From: an uncultured Bacteroidales bacterium
Lineage (GTDB): Bacteria > Bacteroidota > Bacteroidia > Bacteroidales > P3
Direction: 5' to 3'
DNA length: 64,000 nucleotides
Assembly: GCA_946406015.1 (NCBI GenBank)
Contig: CAMJJD010000001.1
Coordinates: 96,814-160,813, forward strand
Part shown: positions 4,823-38,298 of the stretch, in pieces
Layout of the letters: every line of letters begins with the position of its first letter
Position numbering within the stretch: position 1 is the stretch's first letter
Translations under genes and position numbers: made by a program
The notes under the pieces: model-generated
Databases searched by the model: none
Seen by the model: the letters and a program-made list of their open reading frames with translations, nothing else
Told to the model about the DNA's origin: nothing

Positions 4823-5845
4823 CTATTTGGTGATCGTCAGCATCGCGTCGCGCACCTCATTATCAGATATATCTACATCTATTATGGCGGCACCGGGCTC
4901 TTGCAGCAGCACGCAGCGTAGCACTCTGGCAGCGCTCTTCTTGTCCTGGTGCATCAGCGGCAGCATTGCTTCGATATCCTTCAGCGTATAGTGCGGTACG
5001 GCAATATTTGATGCAAGCCAATGGGAATAAGCGTTGTATACCTCTTCTGCAAGCCCCACCTTCTTGGTCGAGAGGTACATGGCGGCCTTCATGCCGATGC
5101 CGACGGCGATGCCATGGGGCAGTTTGCTGTAGACCTCGATGGCGTGGCCGAAGGTGTGGCCGAAATTGAGTATCTTCCTGATACCATGGTCGTAAGGGTC
5201 GGCATTCACCACGCGGGCTTTGATGCGGGCCACCTCCTTAATAGTTGAAAGTTGAAAGTTGAAAGTTGAAAGCAATTGATGGAATAGCGTTGGGTCGGTG
5301 ACGGCGGCGGTCTTCACCATCTCCATCTCTCCGCTGAGTATCTCCTCCTGCGGCAGGGTCTCCAGGAAGGCCGTTTCTATGACCGTCAGGGCGGCAGGGT
5401 AGAAGTGGCCTATGCTGTTTTTCACGCCACCGAAATCGACGGCCGTCTTGCCACCGATGGCCGCGTCGACCATGCCCAGTAAGGTGGTAGGTATGTTGAT
5501 ATGGCGGATGCCGCGCTTGTAGCCTGCGGCCACAAAACCACCTAAGTCACAGATACTTCCACCGCCTAGGTTCACCAGCGCTGCATTGCGGTCGGCCTCG
5601 CCCTCCAGCAACGTCTGCCACACTTGTTCCGCCACCTCCAGACTTTTGCACTCTTCGCCTACAGGCACCTCGATGAATTCCGCCTCCTGTAGCGCCTCCA
5701 CACTGCCTATCAGCAGTGGAAGACAGTGCTGGAAGGTGTTCTCGTCCACCAGAATGGTGTAGCGTGCATCCTGCCATTGCGAAGATGCCAGTTCTCGGTT
5801 CAACGCCCGCAGGCCTCCATAAAGTATCTTGCTTTGTCTCAACAT
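4823..5845 (-). CDS. aroB: 3-dehydroquinate synthase
   Basis: Second step of the shikimate pathway: converts DAHP to 3-dehydroquinate using NAD and a divalent metal. The 340-residue protein shows the nucleotide site GGGSICDLGGF (94-104), GGKTAVDFGGVKN (131-143), and metal ligands expected at E175, in HTFGH (230-234) and at H244. A 28-bp array of four GTTGAAA units lies inside the gene and is translated as STFNFQLST at residues 193-201, in the loop after the metal-binding glutamate. The array looks like an in-frame replacement or insertion and the enzyme still reads as intact. It is transcribed divergently from the U32 gene across only 34 bp. Confidence 0.95.
   Translation of the reverse strand: MLRQSKILYGGLRALNRELASSQWQDARYTILVDENTFQHCLPLLIGSVEALQEAEFIEVPVGEECKSLEVAEQVWQTLLEGEADRNAALVNLGGGSICDLGGFVAAGYKRGIRHINIPTTLLGMVDAAIGGKTAVDFGGVKNSIGHFYPAALTVIETAFLETLPQEEILSGEMEMVKTAAVTDPTLFHQLLSTFNFQLSTIKEVARIKARVVNADPYDHGIRKILNFGHTFGHAIEVYSKLPHGIAVGIGMKAAMYLSTKKVGLAEEVYNAYSHWLASNIAVPHYTLKDIEAMLPLMHQDKKSAARVLRCVLLQEPGAAIIDVDISDNEVRDAMLTITK
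5244..5271. repeat. Heptamer array (GTTGAAA)x4 inside aroB
   Basis: Four perfect consecutive GTTGAAA units with no spacers. The array sits in the reading frame of aroB and encodes a low-complexity peptide on the minus strand. It belongs to the class of short-period arrays found at many other places in this window (see findings). Confidence 0.95.
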
Positions 5846-5882: not shown

Positions 5883-7973
5883 AAACTGGAACTGCTGTCA
5901 CCGGCGAAGAACCTCGAGTTCGGACGCGAGGCCGTCAACCACGGCGCCGACGCGCTCTATATCGGCGCGCCGGCCTTCGGTGCCCGCGCCGCCGCCACCA
6001 ACACGCTCGAAGATATCGACGCCCTCGTGCGTTACGCCCACCTCTACGGCGCCAAGGTCTTCGCCACCGTCAACACCCTCCTCTTCGACAATGAGTTGGA
6101 ACCCGCCGTGGCCATGATTCGCCAGCTCTACAACGCCGGTGTCGACGCCCTCATCCTTCAGGACCTCGGCCTGCTCGAGTGCGACCTGCCACCCATCGAA
6201 CTCCATGCCAGCACGCAGTGCCACAACGCCTCGGTGGAGCGCATAAAGTTCATGGAATCAGTAGGGTTCAGGCGCGTCATCCTAGCCCGCGAAACCTCCC
6301 TGGAGCAGATGAGTGCCATCCGCGAGGCCACCACGGTCGACCTCGAGGCCTTCGTCCACGGCGCCCTCTGCGTGAGCTACAGCGGTCAGTGCTACATGAG
6401 CCAATATCTCAACGAACGCAGCGGCAACCGTGGCCGCTGCTCGCAGCCCTGCCGCAGCAGCTACGACCTCCTCGCCGCCGACGGACGCCTGCTGATAAAA
6501 GACCGCCACCTGCTGTCGCTGCGCGACTTCAACGCCTCGCAGCGCCTGGCCGACATGATAGCCGCCGGCATCACCTCCTTCAAGATCGAGGGACGCCTGA
6601 AAGACCTCAGCTACGTCAAGAACAACACCGCCTACTACCGGCAGCTGCTCGACAGCATGATGGAGGGCCATTCGCCTGCCTCCAGCGGCCATTGCACCTA
6701 CACCTTCACGCCCGACCCCGACCGCACCTTCAATCGCGGCTACACCGACTATTTCCTCCGCACGCGCCAGCCCATGGCCAACTTCGCCACCCAGAAGTCG
6801 CTCGGCAAGAGGGTAGGGGAGGTCACCGCTGTGGGGCGCCGCACCCTCACCGTCGGCGGCAACGAAGCTTTCGCCAACGGCGACGGACTTTGCTACCTTG
6901 ACTCCGACGGCCGCCTGCAGGGGTTCCTCGTCAACCACGTGGAGGGACGCACCCTCACCCCCAACCAGATGCCCGACCTCCAGGTGGGCACCACCCTCTG
7001 GCGCAACCAAGACCAGCAGTTCGAGAAAACGCTGCAAGGCCGCACCGCCGACCGCAAGATAGCCGTCAAACTCTCCTTCTCTCTTGTTTCTGGCGGCTTC
7101 TCATTGAAGATAGAAGACGAGAACGACATCTGCAGCCAAGCCGATATCATGATGGACTATACCCCCTCGTCCGACCCCGTGCGATTCACCGACACCATCG
7201 TCAAACAGCTTTCCAAACTGGGTGACACGCCCTTCGTGGCCACTGAGGTGCGTGACTGCACCGATGGTGTATACTTCTTGCCGGCCTCCATCCTCAACCA
7301 GCTGCGCCGTGATGCTGTGGCAGCGCTCATGGAGAACCGCATCGCGCACTTCCAGCCAATCGACTGTCCGCGGGAGGACCGCCACGAGGCCTACCCGCAG
7401 GCTGCCCTTGACTATCGCGCCAATGTCGTTAACGCCAAGGCCGAAGCCTTCTATCGCCACCATGGTGTGCAGCAGCTGGAACGCGGCCTCGAGCAGACAT
7501 GCGACTACGAGGGGAAGGCACTGATGACCACTAAATATTGCCTTCGCTACGAACTCGGCTGCTGCCTGCACCCCGAAAAGTGGAAAAAGGAAAGTGATAA
7601 GTTGAAAGCGGAAAGTGGAAAGTGGAATGAGGAAAGAGAAAAGTGGAAGGCGGAAAGTGGAAAGTGGAATGAGGAAAGCGGAAAGTGGAAAGCGGAAAGT
7701 GGAAAGTGGAATGAGGAAAGCGGAAAGTGGAAAGTCGAAAGTGGAAAACGTAACGGGGAAAGAGAAAGGTTGAGGGTGGAAAGTGAGAAGTGGAAAGTGA
7801 GAAGTGGCGGGCAGAAAGATGGTGCGGAGGCAGAGCTCCGTTACGCTGGATTTTCGGCGGAGCAACCCCTCAAGATCAACCCTGGCGACACTCTTCTGCT
7901 CCGGAATCAGGACCACGAATTCCGTCTCGAGTTCGACTGCCGTCAGTGCCTCATGCGCATCTACAAAAAGTAG
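5880..7973 (+). CDS. U32 family peptidase / RlhA-like 23S rRNA hydroxylation protein
   Basis: 697 residues. The N-terminus ([19 protein letters not shown]) and collagenase-like barrel are typical of U32 proteins. C164, C171, C187 and C191 form the conserved four-cysteine cluster ([10 protein letters not shown] and RGRCSQPC). A second barrel-associated domain follows (about 300-480), and the C-terminus has [11 protein letters not shown] and FDCRQC motifs. Family members of this long type include RlhA, which hydroxylates a 23S rRNA cytidine; function here is inferred from that. Residues about 566-643 are a Lys/Glu/Trp-rich heptad repeat encoded by a 7-bp nucleotide array, inserted between the two C-terminal cysteine motifs. 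Without it the protein would be close to the usual size. Confidence 0.85.
7575..7806. repeat. Long imperfect heptamer array (GGAAAGT-like) inside the U32 gene
   Basis: About 230 bp made of 7-bp units such as GGAAAGT, GGAATGA and GGAAAGC. Three units (21 bp) make one seven-residue protein repeat, so the translated insert reads [21 protein letters not shown] and so on. This is the longest array in the window that lies inside a gene. Confidence 0.93.
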
Positions 7974-24914: not shown

Positions 24915-24922
24915 TTTCTTAT

Positions 24923-24979
24923 AAAGTTTAAAAGGTTTAAAAGTTCAAAAGGTTTAAAAGGAAATGGTAGGTTTAAAGG
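24923..24979. repeat. Left array of four-helix element 1
   Basis: Units of 8-9 bp (TTTAAAAGG, TTTAAAAG, TTCAAAAGG), opposite in orientation to the array at 25354-25397. It forms the leader immediately upstream of kal and runs up to the end of the four-helix gene. Confidence 0.88.
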
Positions 24980-25341
24980 TTCTCTTTCTGTTGTTTTAAG
25001 GTTTCTAAATATTTGATATGACTATTTATTGCTGATGATATAATTTTGCATTGCGAAATCATATCCTGAGACATCTCTTCTGAACAATATCTCAGTTCCT
25101 TACATAAATAAACCATACTTCGTACTTCGGCACAACTTCCCTTAGCTGTATGGAGATATTTTATGAAAAGTTGGGTGGAACCTGACTCGCTTCCCTCCGC
25201 AATATTATTCATAATTGATACCGCTGCACGCTGAATTTGGTCTTTAAAGCCAAAATCACTGCTATCCTGCATCAACTCATACACCCTTACCGTCAACTTT
25301 TTTGCCAACGACCATGATGTAAGTTCCTCAAAATAAGCCAT
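24973..25341 (-). CDS. Four-helix-bundle protein (23S rRNA IVP / S23 family), element 1
   Basis: 122 residues. FEELTSWSLAKKLTVRVYEL at the front, FKDQIQRAAVSIMNNIAEG in the middle and a C-terminal amphipathic helix match the S23/IVP family, proteins first seen in 23S rRNA intervening sequences and related in fold to Avd of diversity-generating retroelements. No nuclease or transposase motif is visible. The protein is less G+C-rich than its neighbours. Function unknown. Its start is 12 bp from the right array and its stop lies within the edge of the left array. Confidence 0.88.
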   Translation of the reverse strand: MAYFEELTSWSLAKKLTVRVYELMQDSSDFGFKDQIQRAAVSIMNNIAEGSESGSTQLFIKYLHTAKGSCAEVRSMVYLCKELRYCSEEMSQDMISQCKIISSAINSHIKYLETLKQQKENL

Positions 25342-25353
25342 ACAGGAAGCCCG

Positions 25354-25397
25354 TTACCTTTTTAACCTTTAAACCCTTTTAACCTCTTTAACCCTTA
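25354..25397. repeat. Right array of four-helix element 1
   Basis: Units such as CTTTTTAAC and CTTTAAACC with a period of 8-9 bp, inverted relative to 24923-24979. The array reaches into the stop codon of the upstream CoA-transferase gene (25388-25390). Confidence 0.85.
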
Positions 25398-26173: not shown

Positions 26174-26806
26174 ATGAAAAAGACGTTGATTTTTGCCGTA
26201 ATAGTGATGCTTTTCGCCCCCTTGGCGGGTGCGCAGGAATATATTGAGCCGGTTGAAAAGTGGAAGGTGGCCGAGGTGTGGGGCATCAATTACCACGGTT
26301 GGTCGTTCCATCAAGACTGGGAAGTGGACTTCACTGTCGAGAACCAGGACGGCCGTTTCACTCCCACCGACGCCGAAATCGCCGAAGCCGAGCGACTCAT
26401 ACAGAAACGCATATCATACGTCAACCGCGACCATTACAACCAAGGCGGCATGTGCCCCGTCATCGACGAGCACATGCGCATGTACCGCCGTCAGTATGTG
26501 GGCTTCACCAACGACCGCGGTGACCACGTCATCTGGGTCAACTTCCTGTGGGACGATGAATTGACCGATGAGCGACTGGCCAGCGACGTGCTGCTCACCA
26601 CCGGTGGCTGTGGCCACTTCTGGCATCTGAAATGCAACCTCAACACCAAGAAGGTCTATGGCCTCGAGGTGAATGGCGACGGCGACATCCGCTACCTGCC
26701 GCGCGTGGCCAAACCGCAGCCTCGCATCAGCAAGCCTAAGGGCAACAAGAAACAGAAAGTCCGTAAGACCGGTATCATCCACTCTCCTGAAGAGAAAGTA
26801 TTCTAG
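26174..26806 (+). CDS. Exported protein of unknown function
   Basis: 210 residues with a signal peptide (MKKTLIFAVIVMLFAPLAGA). The mature protein includes a conserved-looking centre (QGGMCPVIDEHMRMYRRQY, TNDRGDHVIWVNFL, GGCGHFWHLKCNL) and a basic tail. The two cysteines around GGCGHFWHLKC could bind metal or form a disulphide. I do not recognise a family. The stop codon shares its last two bases with the left array of four-helix element 2. Confidence 0.7.
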   Translation: MKKTLIFAVIVMLFAPLAGAQEYIEPVEKWKVAEVWGINYHGWSFHQDWEVDFTVENQDGRFTPTDAEIAEAERLIQKRISYVNRDHYNQGGMCPVIDEHMRMYRRQYVGFTNDRGDHVIWVNFLWDDELTDERLASDVLLTTGGCGHFWHLKCNLNTKKVYGLEVNGDGDIRYLPRVAKPQPRISKPKGNKKQKVRKTGIIHSPEEKVF

Positions 26807-26836
26807 TTCGGAATTCGGAACTCGGAGTTCGGAGTT
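26805..26836. repeat. Left terminal inverted repeat (AGTTCGG array) of element 2
   Basis: Four 7-bp units plus four bases, ending directly at the ATG of the four-helix gene. It matches the reverse complement of 27196-27227 at 30 of 32 positions. Confidence 0.95.
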
Positions 26837-27196
26837 ATGGATAGAAGCGTTCTTCAACAAAAAAGCTACAACTTTGCTATTAGGGTTGTACGATTATATT
26901 CACATCTGCGCGATAATAAACACGAATATACCTTATCGAAACAATTACTCCGCTCAGGAACCAGCGTTGGCGCCAATCTACGAGAAGCCAAACGAGGACA
27001 ATCCAGAGCAGATTTTGCTGCAAAATTGACCATAGCACTCAAAGAGGCTGAAGAGTCTCTCTACTGGATTGAGTTGCTTAAAGAAGCAGGGTTGTTAACC
27101 AGCGATGAATTCGATAGTATATACCATGACTGCGAAGAACTAGTTAAAATGCTCGTGTCGGCGACAAAGAAACTATATGGGCCAGATACAAAATAA
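26837..27196 (+). CDS. Four-helix-bundle protein (S23/IVP family), element 2
   Basis: 119 residues. LLRSGTSVGANLREAKRG (about 37-54), AALKEAEESLYWIELLKEA-like sequence and a C-terminal helix match the second common form of S23/IVP four-helix proteins. It is less G+C-rich than the neighbouring genes. There is no room for separate regulatory DNA: the leader is the terminal repeat itself. Family assignment is firm from the SGTSVGANLREA motif; function is unknown. Confidence 0.9.
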   Translation: MDRSVLQQKSYNFAIRVVRLYSHLRDNKHEYTLSKQLLRSGTSVGANLREAKRGQSRADFAAKLTIALKEAEESLYWIELLKEAGLLTSDEFDSIYHDCEELVKMLVSATKKLYGPDTK

Positions 27197-27620
27197 ACTC
27201 CGAACTCCGAACTCCGAATTCCGAACTCTACTATTAAAGTTCTTAAAATTTGGCGTGGTAGGCGCTTCGGGGATGGTGGTGCATGGAGGCGTGCTCTACC
27301 TGCTGAAAGAGGTGGCAGGTCTCAACCCTTTTGTGGCCAACACCATCGGCTTCGTCACCGCAGCCACCACCAACTACATCCTCAACCGTATCTGGACCTT
27401 CCGCAGCCATGAGAAGCAGGTGGGCGTGGAGTACCTCAAGTTCATCCTCGTCAGTGTCGTCGGACTCGGCATCAACAATGCCACCCTCTGGCTTGGCGGA
27501 CGTCTGCTGCCCGCTTGGAACGACGACTGGCGCTTCTACATTCTCTGGGTCTTTGCCGTCGGTGTCACCACACTCTGGAACTTCTTCGGCAATATGTTGT
27601 TTACATTTAAACAGAAATAA
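27177..27620 (+). CDS. GtrA-like membrane protein
   Basis: 147 residues with four predicted membrane helices: KFLKFGVVGASGMVVHGGVL, VANTIGFVTAATTNYILN, FILVSVVGLGINNATLWLG and ILWVFAVGVTTLWNFFGNM. NYILNRIWTF is the GtrA signature. Members take part in flipping or transferring undecaprenyl-linked sugars. The only good start is ATG 27177, inside the end of the four-helix gene, so the first 16 or so residues come from the repeat array. This N-terminus is unlike normal GtrA proteins. It is followed 2 bp later by the aminotransferase. Confidence 0.85.
   Translation: MGQIQNKLRTPNSEFRTLLLKFLKFGVVGASGMVVHGGVLYLLKEVAGLNPFVANTIGFVTAATTNYILNRIWTFRSHEKQVGVEYLKFILVSVVGLGINNATLWLGGRLLPAWNDDWRFYILWVFAVGVTTLWNFFGNMLFTFKQK
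27196..27228. repeat. Right terminal inverted repeat of element 2
   Basis: Units AACTCCG x3, AATTCCG, then AACTC, starting within the stop codon of the four-helix gene. It is translated in the gtrA frame as [12 protein letters not shown]. Confidence 0.95.
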
Positions 27621-30606: not shown

Positions 30607-32679
30607 TCAACCCACCGAGCAGCCGGGGGTGACAAGGTCGCTGGGGGTGAGGAGGACGAGACGGCCGTCCTTGTCCTCGGCGCTGAGGATCATGCCCTGG
30701 CTCTCGACACCCTTGAGTTTGCGGGGCGGGAAGTTGGCGATGAAGCAGACCTGACGGCCTACCAACGCCTGCGGGTCGGGGTAGAACTTGGCGATGCCGC
30801 TGACGATGGTGCGGGTGCCCATGCCGTCCTCAATCTTGAACTGCAGCAGTTTGTCGGCCTTGGGGACCTTCTGGCACTCGAGGATGGTGCCCACACGGAT
30901 GTCCATCTTGCCGAAGTCGTCGATGGTGACCGGCGCCTTCACCTCGGCGGGCTTCCAGGCGTTGAGTTCGTTCTGCGCCTTGGTGGCCTGCAGCTTGTCG
31001 ACCTGGGCCTGGATGGTCTCGTCGCTGATCTGCTCGAAGAGCAGCTCAGGCGTGCCGATGGTGTGGCCTTCCATCAGGAGGTCGGCGCGGCCGGCGTCTT
31101 TCCAACCGAGGGCCTGCAGGTTCATGATGCGGTGCATCTTGTCGGCCGTGAAGGGCAGGAAGGGGGCGCAGAGGATGGCCAGGTTGGCGCAAATCTGCAA
31201 CGAGAGGTTCATCACCGTGGCGGTGCGCTCGGGGTCGCTCTTGACGAGCTTCCAGGGCTCGGTGTCGGTGAGGTATTTGTTACCCAGACGGGCCAGGTTC
31301 ATCATCTCGGCGAGGGCCTCGCGGAAGCGGTAGGTCTCAATTGAGCGGCCTATGCGCTCGGGGAAGGTGGCCATCTCTTTGATGACTTCGTCATCGAGTT
31401 CGGAGTTCGGAGTTCGGAGTTTGGAGATGGCGGGCACGCGCCCGCCGTAGAACTTGTGCGTCAGCACCAGCGTACGGTTGACGAAGTTGCCGAGGATGGC
31501 TACCAGCTCGCTGTTGTTCTTCAGCTGGAAGTCCTTCCAGGTGAAGTCGTTGTCCTTGGTCTCCGGGGCGTTGCTGCAGAGGGTGTAGCGCAGCACGTCC
31601 TGCTTGCCGGGGAACTCCTGCAGGTATTCGTGCAGCCAGACGGCCCAGTTGCGCGAGGTCGAAATCTTGTCGCCCTCGAGGTTGAGGAACTCGTTGGCCG
31701 GCACGTTGGCGGGCAGGATGTAGCTGCCGTCGGCGTGGAGCATCGAGGGGAAGATGATGCAGTGGAAGACGATATTGTCCTTGCCGATGAAGTGCACCAG
31801 CTTGGTGTCCTGGTCTTTCCACCACTTCTCCCAGTCGTCGCCTTTCAGCTGCTTGGTGAAGCTGATGTAGCCGATGGGGGCGTCGAACCAGACGTAGAGC
31901 ACCTTGCCGTCGGCACCCTCCAAGGGTACCTTGACGCCCCAGTCGAGGTCGCGCGTGACGGCGCGGGGCTGCAAGCCGGCGTCGATCCACGACTTGCACT
32001 GGCCGTAGACGTTGGTCTTCCAGTCGCCTTTGTGGCCTTCGAGAATCCACTCGCGCAGCCAAGGCTCGTCCTGGTCGAGGGGGAGGAACCAATGCTTGGT
32101 CTCTTTCAGCACGGGTTTCGAGCCGCTGAGGGCGCTCTTGGGGTTAATCAAATCGGTGGCGTTGAGCGAGGTGCCGCAGGCTTCACACTGGTCGCCGTAG
32201 GCGCGCTCGTTGCCGCAGTGGGGGCAGGTGCCGGTGATGTAGCGGTCGGCCAGGAAGCAGCCGGCCTCCTCGTCGTAGTACTGCATCGACACCTTCTCGA
32301 CGAACTTGCCCTCGTCGTACAGCTTCTTGAAGTAGGCCGCTGCGGTCTCGTGATGCTCCTTGCTGGAGGTGCGGCTGTAGATGTCGAACGAGATGCCCAG
32401 CTCGGCGAAGGAGTCCTTGATGATCTTGTGGTAGCGGTCGACGATGTCCTGCGGCGTGCAGCCCTCCTTGCGGGCCTTGATGGTGATGGGCACGCCGTGC
32501 TCGTCGCTTCCGCCGATGAACATCACCTCCTCGCCTTGGGCGCGCAGGTAGCGCACGTAGACGTCGGCAGGCACATAGACACCCGCCAGGTGGCCGATGT
32601 GCACGGGGCCGTTGGCGTAGGGCAGCGCCGAGGTGACGGTGTAGCGCTTGTATTTATGGTCTTTTTCTGTGTAGGTCAT
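30607..32679 (-). CDS. metG: Methionyl-tRNA synthetase
   Basis: Charges initiator and elongator tRNA-Met. 690 residues with HIGH at 27-30, a zinc knuckle ([17 protein letters not shown], about 153-169), the [10 protein letters not shown] site, the KISTS form of the KMSKS loop typical of Bacteroidetes, the anticodon-binding helical domain and a C-terminal OB-fold tRNA-binding domain ([15 protein letters not shown], about 590-605). A 30-bp AGTTCGG array is translated at residues 419-428 as KLRTPNSEL between catalytic and anticodon domains. It reads through in frame and the enzyme appears intact. Confidence 0.97.
31397..31426. repeat. Heptamer array (AGTTCGG)x3 plus variant inside metG
   Basis: Units at 31397, 31404 and 31411 are identical and 31418 is AGTTTGG. 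The unit is the same as in the terminal repeats of four-helix element 2, 4.2 kb away. Confidence 0.93.
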
Positions 32680-34201: not shown

Positions 34202-34323
34202 TTTGCAGTATTCGTTTTTTATCGTTAATTAGCAAAAGAAAACGCGTAATATATGCTATTATTGTGTCGCAAGGTGTTTTTTTTTACTTCGTCGCGTCTG
34301 ATCCGAGTAGCCTCCCGTTTCAT

Positions 34324-34622
34324 CTCTCCGCTTTCTCCGCTCATCTTCTCCCTGCTTTCTCCGTACCTTCTCCCTACCTTCTCCGTACTTCTCCCTGCCC
34401 CGCACGGAGGATGTACCTTGCCGCCGTTGTTTTGCTCGCGCGCTGGTAGCGCTTTGAGTCCTTAGGTCTTTGAGTCCTTGGGTCCTTGAGTCTCGATGGC
34501 TCTTCGACTTTTCGACTTTTCGACTCTTCGACTTTTTGACTTTTCGACTTTTTGACTTTTCGACTTTTTGACTTTTTGACTTTTCGGCTCTTCGACTTTT
34601 TGACTTTTTGACTCTTCGACTC
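34324..34622. repeat. Composite of three short-period arrays in a gene-free spacer
   Basis: The 475-bp spacer 34202-34676 contains three distinct arrays. First, an 11-bp-period CT-rich array (34324-34400, TTCTCCGTACC, TTCTCCCTACC). Second, an 8-bp-like array (34452-34493, TTTGAGTCC, TTAGGTC, TTGGGTCC). Third, about 15 units of 8 bp (34501-34622, CGACTTTT, TGACTTTT, CGACTCTT). No real gene is present; the open frame through it on the minus strand is Lys/Ser low complexity caused by the repeats. Confidence 0.9.
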
Positions 34623-35511: not shown

Positions 35512-36363
35512 TTATGACGGCTGTTGGCCGAGGTGGTATTGGCGCAGCCCTTCGATGGGGTCGGCCATCACAGTGCCGATGGCGAGTTTGTCGGAGGACA
35601 TGAAGCTGCGCAGGGTAGGCTCGATGGCCTTGGCGAATCCTCCGACCAGGTTGAGTTGTCCCTCGGATATACCGCTCTGTTCCTGCAACGTGGCCAGCAT
35701 TCCATGACGCCAGTCGTAGAGTGCTTCCGTAATCACGCTGCGGCAGTAGTCAGCCTCCTGCCGATGCACGGCGAAGGGAGCCAGCGATGCCAGGAAGCGG
35801 TTGGGGTTGGATTGGTGATATACGGCGTCGATAAGCTGGTCGTCGGTCATGGGGTAATTGTCATGGAACATGCATCTTACCTCCTCTGGCATGCGATGGG
35901 TGAGGTAGTCGTTGAGCAGTATGCGACCCACATGGTTGGCCGACCCTTGGTCGCCGAGGATAAAGCCTGTGCTGACAGGTTGGCAAGCGATGCGGAGGCC
36001 ATCGTAACAGCAGGCGTTGCTGCCGGTACCCAGGATGGCTACCAACGAGGGACGGCCGCCGCTCACCGCTCGGCAGGCACCCAGCATGTCGGTCTCGACA
36101 TGCACCTCGGCGGCACAGAATCCCGCCGACAGGAGTCGCTCCACCCGCTCCCTCTGCGAGGCATTGCCGCAGCCGGCACCATAGAAGTAAATTGAGAATT
36201 GAGAATTGAGAATTGAGAATTGCTGGCGCACGGCGGAGCAGGCGGCGAGGAACCGCTCGTCGGAGGTGAAATGGGGGTTGAGACCTTCGGTAACCACCTT
36301 GTTACCAGACTCCACTTCCATCCACGTGGTCTTGGTGCTCCCGCTGTCGGCTATGATTGTCAT
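35512..36363 (-). CDS. BadF/BadG-type ATPase, N-acetylglucosamine kinase-like
   Basis: 283 residues of the ASKHA superfamily: DSGSTKTTW (phosphate 1 motif, about 6-14), FYGAGCGN (about 60-67), LGTGSNACCYDG (phosphate 2, about 110-121), GFILGDQGSANHVG (about 132-145). The closest functional type is the GlcNAc kinase-like group of Bacteroidetes, which phosphorylates amino sugars from peptidoglycan or glycans; substrate is inferred. A 33-bp AATTGAG array is translated at residues 48-58 as QQFSILNSQFSI, an insertion before the FYGAGC strand. Confidence 0.85.
   Translation of the reverse strand: MTIIADSGSTKTTWMEVESGNKVVTEGLNPHFTSDERFLAACSAVRQQFSILNSQFSIYFYGAGCGNASQRERVERLLSAGFCAAEVHVETDMLGACRAVSGGRPSLVAILGTGSNACCYDGLRIACQPVSTGFILGDQGSANHVGRILLNDYLTHRMPEEVRCMFHDNYPMTDDQLIDAVYHQSNPNRFLASLAPFAVHRQEADYCRSVITEALYDWRHGMLATLQEQSGISEGQLNLVGGFAKAIEPTLRSFMSSDKLAIGTVMADPIEGLRQYHLGQQPS
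36190..36222. repeat. Heptamer array (AATTGAG)x4.7 inside the BadF-type gene
   Basis: Four perfect AATTGAG units and a partial fifth without spacers, in frame in the kinase gene. Confidence 0.95.
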
Positions 36364-37371: not shown

Positions 37372-37386
37372 ATGCTTAATCTTTAT

Positions 37387-37518
37387 GTAGTTATGTAGTA
37401 AAGTAGTTATCGCTTCGCTCGCCCTGCGGGCAGTAGTTAAGACAAATGTTTATGTTGCCTCTTTGCTGCCAACGACAGTATTGCCCTATCTACTTAACTA
37501 CTGTCTACTTAACTACTT
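37387..37518. repeat. Inverted pair of GTAGTTA arrays between pyrK and pyrD
   Basis: Left 37387-37410 (GTAGTTAT, GTAGTAAA, GTAGTTAT) and right 37490-37518 (CTACTTAA, CTACTGTC, CTACTTAA) are in opposite orientation about 80 bp apart; a short extra copy lies at 37432-37440. The right array includes the pyrK stop codon (37513-37515). No gene lies between them. Confidence 0.88.
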
Positions 37519-38298
37519 ATTCTCATACCATTTCTTCATGCTTGTGATGTCGAACACAGGTCCGTCCTTGCAGACGCAGCGGTGTCCTTGGTCGGTGTCG
37601 GTGACGCAGCAGAGGCAGGCGCCGACGCCACATGCCATCATATTCTCGAGCGATACCTCGCAGCGGATGCCGCGTTCAGCCGCCGAGCGGGCCACGGCCT
37701 TCATCATGGGTGTGGGGCCGCAGGTGTAGATGATGTCGTACTGCTCAGCGAAGGCGGGGTTCTCAATTACCAACCCTTTGTGTCCCAGACTTCCGTCGTC
37801 GGTAGAGAGGCACACGGTGCCGTAGGGGCGGAACTCGTCGCGCACGGGGATGAGTTCGGCGGTGCGGCCGCCCAGCAGGATGGTGCAGTCGACACCCTTT
37901 GCTTTCAGCACCTTGGAGAGGTAGAAGAGGGGGGCGATGCCTGCGCCGCCACCCACCAGAAGGGCGCGGCTGGATACCGGCAGGTCGACCGAGAAACCAT
38001 GACCCAGAGGGTAGACGATATTCACGCGGTCGCCTTCGGTGAGTTGGCTCAGCCGGCGCGTGCCCTTGCCCACCACCTGGACGAGCAACGAGAGGGTGCC
38101 GGCGTCGGGGTCGACATCGTGTACCGAGATGGGGCGGCGCAACATCACACCGGGTTCGCCGTCGACCCTCACCTCGACAAATTGTCCTGGAGCCACCGGC
38201 GGCATCGGGCTGAGGTGGCTGTGGCGCAGCACAAGGGTGAAGTAGTGTTCGCCGTGCCGATGCAACGCTAAGAAGCTGAAATCGTGTATTTCTTTCAT
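37513..38298 (-). CDS. pyrK: Dihydroorotate dehydrogenase electron-transfer subunit
   Basis: FAD and 2Fe-2S subunit that passes electrons from PyrD to NAD. 261 residues: an N-terminal ferredoxin-reductase-like FAD domain (PVAPGQFVEVRVD, RRPISVHDVD), an NAD-binding half (LLVGGGAGIAPLFYLSK, about 112-128) and the C-terminal cluster (CGVGACLCCV, then CVC). Co-directional and just upstream of pyrD, which confirms pairing. It has a TATCTTTG-type promoter on the minus strand. Confidence 0.95.
   Translation of the reverse strand: MKEIHDFSFLALHRHGEHYFTLVLRHSHLSPMPPVAPGQFVEVRVDGEPGVMLRRPISVHDVDPDAGTLSLLVQVVGKGTRRLSQLTEGDRVNIVYPLGHGFSVDLPVSSRALLVGGGAGIAPLFYLSKVLKAKGVDCTILLGGRTAELIPVRDEFRPYGTVCLSTDDGSLGHKGLVIENPAFAEQYDIIYTCGPTPMMKAVARSAAERGIRCEVSLENMMACGVGACLCCVTDTDQGHRCVCKDGPVFDITSMKKWYENK

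Follow-up and report, generated by a model that had tools for sequence, protein, structure and literature searches.

A probable minimal mobile element with a single S23/IVP gene between inverted heptamer arrays in an uncultured Bacteroidales bacterium

The closest described relative of the element reported here is the intervening sequence (IVS) in the 23S rRNA of Coxiella burnetii, which contains an S23 open reading frame, 28-bp terminal repeats and, before the open reading frame, three tandem GACAGAT heptamers whose number varies between strains; mobility of such IVSs has been proposed by earlier authors (PMC4990558). For a gene that is accompanied by hairpin satellites, REPINs with their RAYTs are the nearest analogue: both systems combine a repeat-flanked gene copy with many short hairpins that have the same ends, but S23 is not a Y1 tyrosine transposase and the tandem 7-mers that form the repeats here change from genome to genome and from locus to locus (PMC3116915). 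Dispersed 7-bp repeats are also represented by the TAACTGA heptanucleotide arrays of Beggiatoaceae, Cyanobacteria and Bacteroidetes, which are patchy across taxa and, in the part of that description considered here, come without a known mechanism and without a stated tie to an S23 gene or to inverted pairs (PMC4679880). Classical IS elements and MITEs differ in that a fixed family terminal repeat and an encoded transposase are absent in S23 units and no target-site duplication is seen at the two resolved insertions. Other bacterial heptanucleotide tandem repeats are the cyanobacterial STRRs. The Avd protein of diversity-generating retroelements, a nucleic-acid partner protein, has an S23-like fold and belongs to the four-helix-bundle superfamily; the bundle is common to Avd and the S23 unit, in which there is no reverse transcriptase with TR/VR.

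The S23 unit under study occupies 423 bp at positions 26805-27227 of the window, the whole 64,000-nucleotide stretch of DNA that was analysed. Its left arm (26805-26836, plus strand) consists of 4.6 copies of AGTTCGG as delimited by TRF and has no equivalent at the orthologous junction of 27 relatives, and its right arm (27196-27227, minus strand) is an inverted copy of the left one according to arm alignment, TRF and a random-site null. The two 32-nt arms match at 30 of 32 positions (94%) across a spacing of 359 nt, with a period of 7 in both (AGTTCGG with 84% matches, AACTCCG with 92%). None of 20,000 random pairs drawn from the source genome at this spacing reached the observed score of 54 (maximum 44, 99.9th percentile 24). 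The S23/IVP gene (26837-27196, plus strand) starts directly on the base after the left arm, and the last base of its TAA stop codon is at the same time the first base of the right arm. Its 119-aa product matches the profile PF05635 (23S_rRNA_IVP) with 99 bits (E 1.7e-28) and is close to the solved structure 2RLD (E 1.6e-31), which we take to be a B. thetaiotaomicron protein. The unit encodes S23 only, neither a transposase nor a reverse transcriptase, and its RNA is predicted to fold with a z-score of -6.4 and a stem of 30 bp. The original prediction, namely inverted AGTTCGG-type ends equal at 30 of 32 positions that tightly enclose one gene of the S23/IVP four-helix family and nothing else, was borne out in each of these respects.

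The Coxiella IVS and the 423-bp unit are alike in having S23/IVP as their sole gene, heptamers within the ends, a length close to 430 bp and inverted repeats of some 30 bp at the termini. Unlike the rRNA IVSs, the S23 units described here lie between protein genes, have their own repeat in each copy, are accompanied by dispersed gene-free cognate hairpins and have arms that are rewritten together. A search for rRNA in the 64-kb window found none, and the 423-bp unit sits between two protein genes instead of a 23S rRNA helix. The claim that no description of such an element is established therefore stands only in part: heptamers in the end of an S23-bearing IVS had already been described for Coxiella (PMC4990558), whereas no report of intergenic S23 units with unit-specific satellites was found in the open literature.

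The insertion site is empty in most relatives. At 27 of 29 other loci of the same genus the upstream gene adjoins gtrA with neither a gene nor an array in between, so that the outcome named beforehand as speaking against mobility, the constant presence of this gene at orthologous loci, is not what is seen. G015 has a different S23 gene (57% aa) with its own arms at this junction, and in G085 the left arm and seven bases resembling an S23 start are fused to gtrA, with a small hairpin interrupting; this remnant is read as a deletion scar. The relative G012 is also empty at the sites of three S23 loci (L005, L008, L009). In the source genome, the open frame of gtrA (GtrA/DPMS; 27177-27620, plus strand) starts inside the S23 gene and runs through the right arm (..RTPNSEFRTLLLKF..), and a comparison with the native starts of relatives indicates that the native gtrA start has been overwritten. 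A near-identical S23 gene at another site, as a sign of recent transposition, was not found within the genus, where the closest S23 relatives have 66% aa identity. Templating of the unit by its target was considered and is not claimed: AACTCCG is found in the native gtrA start (8-nt run, G012, P 0.006), with a weak excess over nine junctions (P 0.04). During insertion the unit could perhaps pair with host sequence that resembles it.

Inverted short-period arrays flank almost every S23 gene that was examined across seven phyla, and the unit differs at nearly all loci. Such arms were found in Bacteroidota, Bacillota, Alphaproteobacteria, Cyanobacteriota, Spirochaetota, Chloroflexota and Kapaibacterium, and both the inverted flanks and the locus-specific units hold across genus and family and in 80 named loci, some of them from Firmicutes and Alphaproteobacteria. 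The controls were windows lying 1.1 kb farther out at the same loci; they took the place of a cross-locus shuffle, which is too harsh as a null because the arrays of different loci resemble each other. The original prediction had asked whether other S23 genes are flanked in this way, and they are: 61 of 79 and 56 of 61 loci lay above the 95th percentile of the far windows, and 11 of 12 plasmid or phage loci had such flanks; plasmid loci with inverted arrays are present in cyanobacteria, Treponema, Chlorohelix and Bernardetia. A period of 7 came out best on 73 of 280 near sides, compared with 4 of 280 far sides, and G exceeded C in the arm, read from the outside inwards, at 101 of 118 loci. Some S23-like proteins (L010 and L014) are without arms, the first of which is at the same place in G012 too and looks like an ordinary chromosomal gene. 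When 2.3 Mb of two genomes were searched for periodic inverted pairs with a loop of about 340-460 nt, all pairs held S23, save those in one repetitive coding region, and S23 was the sole gene found to be tightly enclosed. An inner motif, GCTGACGC, is shared by some loci (4 near versus 0 far) but was rejected as a general feature.

A second unit in the window (24919-25396) had been missed by the original prediction. It is composed of an arm with the unit GGTTTAAAA (24919-24961, plus strand; TRF), an S23/IVP gene of 122 aa (24973-25341, minus strand; PF05635, 103 bits) and the inverted arm (25356-25396, minus strand; TRF), and in G085 a relative of its S23 (67.5% aa) occupies a different site nearby, between AGGTTTAAA-type arms. 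Equally missed was a gene-less array pair, GTAGTTA.. / ..TAACTAC (37383-37519, no strand assigned), a candidate non-autonomous copy whose inner ends GACAAATG..GTATTGCC resemble those of one S23 subfamily. The heptamer of the 423-bp unit itself recurs as a solo AGTTCGG array (31396-31426, plus strand; TRF), in frame within the methionyl-tRNA synthetase gene. About ten S23 genes of this type, a broken copy among them, are present in the source genome; nearly all are within inverted arrays, and the units are all different.

Several further observations concern arrays and neighbouring genes. In-frame short-period arrays at 31396-31426, 5243-5272, 36190-36222 and 7577-7807 fall in the genes of methionyl-tRNA synthetase, 3-dehydroquinate synthase, a BadF/BadG-type kinase and a U32 peptidase, and one intergenic stretch (34323-34622) is a dense mosaic of different short arrays with 11-, 8- and 16-bp periods. 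A putatively shikimate-dehydrogenase-like protein, so named from its sequence (G000:C22:2900-3500 and G012:C5:8860-9440), has three array positions in each of the two species; the units differ but the lengths are similar, so array-coded peptide segments have been swapped in place. The arrays of L046, L036, L029 and L388 and the pair at 37383-37519 contain small perfect palindromes (GTCGGCTGAGCCGAC, GCCGCAAGCGGC and others), and in L388 an identical palindrome-rich insert is present in both arms. A larger S23-related protein of about 240 aa (L013, G000:C90) lies between CTATAGG-type arrays at a site that is empty in G012. At the G012 counterpart of the S23 site L002 (L120:851-1414) a DUF559-like gene within inverted GCCTCACCCC..GGAGAGGGG repeats forms another one-gene unit at the same place, and a GxxExxY-like gene (L121:15505-16041) within inverted repeats containing GAATTACTC units is a possible parallel to the S23 units. 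S23 units on plasmids (L365, L366, L369-L371) are often situated amid restriction and phage-defence genes (DISARM-like, type I RM, DUF1156/Swt1).

Mobility of S23 units can be read directly from the comparison of Nostoc plasmids. The unit of pNsp_c (L374) and that of a UHCC 0870 plasmid (L388) share 418 nt at 87.8%, arms included, with no match beyond, and their sites are unrelated. Three other plasmids (L390-L392) lack the unit; in them a DNA cytosine methyltransferase gene is uninterrupted, and a 328-bp segment of it bridges the two flanks. The unit of pC052_A (L384), with arms identical at 39 of 39 positions, has an empty counterpart in pC052_D of the same strain, where the right flank (99.7%) and the left flank (89.7%) enclose 188 bp of host DNA. 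Dolichospermum has a related unit (78%) at a different site, whose left arm contains two unit types, (AATTCGT)4 and (AATTTGG)6. Because the identity ends at the arms and the flanks exist free of the unit, the arm-bounded unit is what moves and its insertion replaces target DNA; target-site duplications are absent, the two resolved Nostoc insertions having replaced 188 and 328 bp. At L384, the left arm has an outer CAAAA whose mirror image, TTTTG, stands at the right junction and is mostly host-native (TTTG). Empty sites, arms at other S23 genes and movement between plasmids support the idea of a minimal mobile element with termini of short tandem units, with the qualifications that some S23 sites have long been inherited while both arms were rewritten together, that the target is replaced and not duplicated, and that heptamers had been known before in the ends of rRNA IVSs.

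The units of S23 elements also occur in arrays without a gene. In a comparison of 1.24 Mb of the source genome with 1.09 Mb of G012, arrays matching the unit of an S23 element were abundant in the genome having that element and rare in the other. AGTTCGG arrays numbered 18 in the source genome and 0 in G012, and the counts for owner versus other genome were 36 versus 1 for both AGTGTTA and AGTTAAG and 46 versus 4 for AGTGGGT; AAAGTGG (27 versus 44), GTTTACG (17 versus 21) and GAATTTT failed to discriminate between the two. Among 120 genomes, AGTTCGG arrays are present in 12, with most in G085, G000 and G081, all of which have traces at the site of the 423-bp unit. AGTGGGT arrays are present in 26, and S23 arms of this unit are known in two of the richest, G012 and G093. 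Short hairpins that share the ends of the gene copy were found in G012 for AAATTAG and AGTGGGT. The AGTGGGT arrays of this genome are mostly plus-minus ordered pairs with loops of 9-20 nt, and in the AAATTAG family the hairpin loop (AGTGGGCTGACGCGG-CCTGCGCAAGC..) is what an internal deletion would be expected to leave, namely the two inner ends of the cognate S23 unit fused, left to right. Spread by a reverse transcriptase or a RAYT was considered and rejected, as neither was found in G085, a draft genome (81% complete) with 23 AGTTCGG matches. G000 has only one RAYT match (PF01797), which lies elsewhere, and RVT_1 had no match in G085 and G002 despite 7 and 18 S23 matches, its other matches lying outside units.

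The comparisons thus show units with arms at sites that are empty in relatives, near-identical units at unrelated sites, an own repeat unit in each copy or lineage, and dispersed gene-free cognate arrays and hairpins. The 423-bp unit is probably a complete minimal IVS-like mobile element outside rRNA, with REPIN-like satellites, S23 as mobility factor and one arm copied from the other. In elements of this family the repeat that makes up the inverted ends is short and in most cases 7 bp long. The S23 protein would bind the hairpin that the arms form in single-stranded DNA or RNA and would help host replication or repair enzymes to put the unit, or a gene-free hairpin, at new sites, a process that would replace target DNA as in the two Nostoc cases. 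S23, the only gene of the unit, is the probable mobility factor; neither a nuclease or polymerase domain nor any other catalytic domain is known in it, so host enzymes presumably take part. Fold-back copying could use one arm as the template for the other, both when that arm first forms and in later correction, as suggested by arm identity and the L384 junction, and would explain why arms match each other but hardly any other element.

It is conceivable that arrays and hairpins are made and spread otherwise, by slippage, fold-back synthesis or another enzyme, and that S23 is merely trapped in or inserted into them. There are indeed far more heptamer arrays than S23 genes, and arrays turn over in their absence; gene-less hairpins are common, and units at shared positions are wholly replaced between species: all 17 pairs of facing arrays at orthologous positions of the source genome and G012 differ in unit, and the remaining arrays (53 and 27) have none opposite them. 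G012 moreover has AAAATTG arrays and no S23 of this unit in the part examined. Such an independent origin is nevertheless unlikely, as two S23-free genera have almost no arrays and the load scales with the number of S23 genes elsewhere. In 101 genomes of the family, matches to a generic period-7 pattern rise with S23 matches (Spearman 0.80; 0.73 within and 0.68 outside the genus), a relative measure only, in which overlapping matches are counted, a reversed-pattern control matched arrays as well, and base composition and ancestry may confound the correlation. S23 as the only tightly enclosed gene, the co-occurrence of arrays and S23 elements matched by unit, and the presence of one unit with its arms at two sites in Nostoc also argue against it.

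At orthologous S23 sites, arms agree better within than across genomes in 46 of 55 pairs, and both arms therefore change together; one such site has AAACTAA-type arms in L190-L192 and AATTGAG-type arms in L199/L210. A function at the RNA level might account for paired arms if the long transcript stem let RNase III cut the S23 message from host operons, as in 23S rRNA IVSs, with selection on the RNA maintaining the pairing and mobility being incidental. The predicted fold and its 30-bp stem would fit, but arm mismatches have no excess of G.U over A.C (103 versus 128 of 551, p 0.11), which speaks for copying over selection on RNA pairing, and compensatory selection was rejected on this lack of a wobble bias. 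Together with the wholesale rewriting of units and the gene-free hairpins that share S23 unit ends, this makes an RNA-level explanation quite improbable, although cleavage of the stem in S23 transcripts may still occur. That chance short repeats, which are common as heptamer arrays in these genomes, expanded separately on either side of a resident gene is largely refuted and scarcely credible, as the arms share their order of variant units, a unit-by-unit match that independent expansions would not give, have inverted orientation at almost all S23 loci, are missing along with the gene at empty sites and are equalled by none of the 20,000 random sites.

New here are IVS-like S23 elements outside rRNA with unit-specific satellites, heptamer-bearing ends of S23 IVSs being already known (PMC4990558). 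Read as a mobile element, the S23 unit has copy-specific termini and two ends that are rewritten together, which places it outside the known rules of transposition. To our knowledge, what S23 proteins and IVSs do and where they come from has been an open question since about 1990, as has the origin of bacterial heptanucleotide arrays, and the present findings tie these two questions together. We tentatively propose, as an idea that may or may not hold, that S23/IVP proteins serve as mobility factors for a bacterial mobile DNA class in its own right, which would build its inverted ends by copying a short repeat, send out gene-free heptamer hairpins in trans and account for much of the heptanucleotide repeat DNA in Bacteroidota, Cyanobacteriota and other phyla, the 23S rRNA IVSs being members that landed in rRNA by chance. 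If S23 drives the arrays, genomes that lose it should gain no further arrays, and a marked hairpin should stay in place unless S23 is present. Since arrays lie in frame in housekeeping genes such as those of methionyl-tRNA synthetase and 3-dehydroquinate synthase, the process would also shape proteins. Copies with their own repeats and scattered gene-free repeats point to mobile DNA of a kind that is widespread in bacteria and has been little described.
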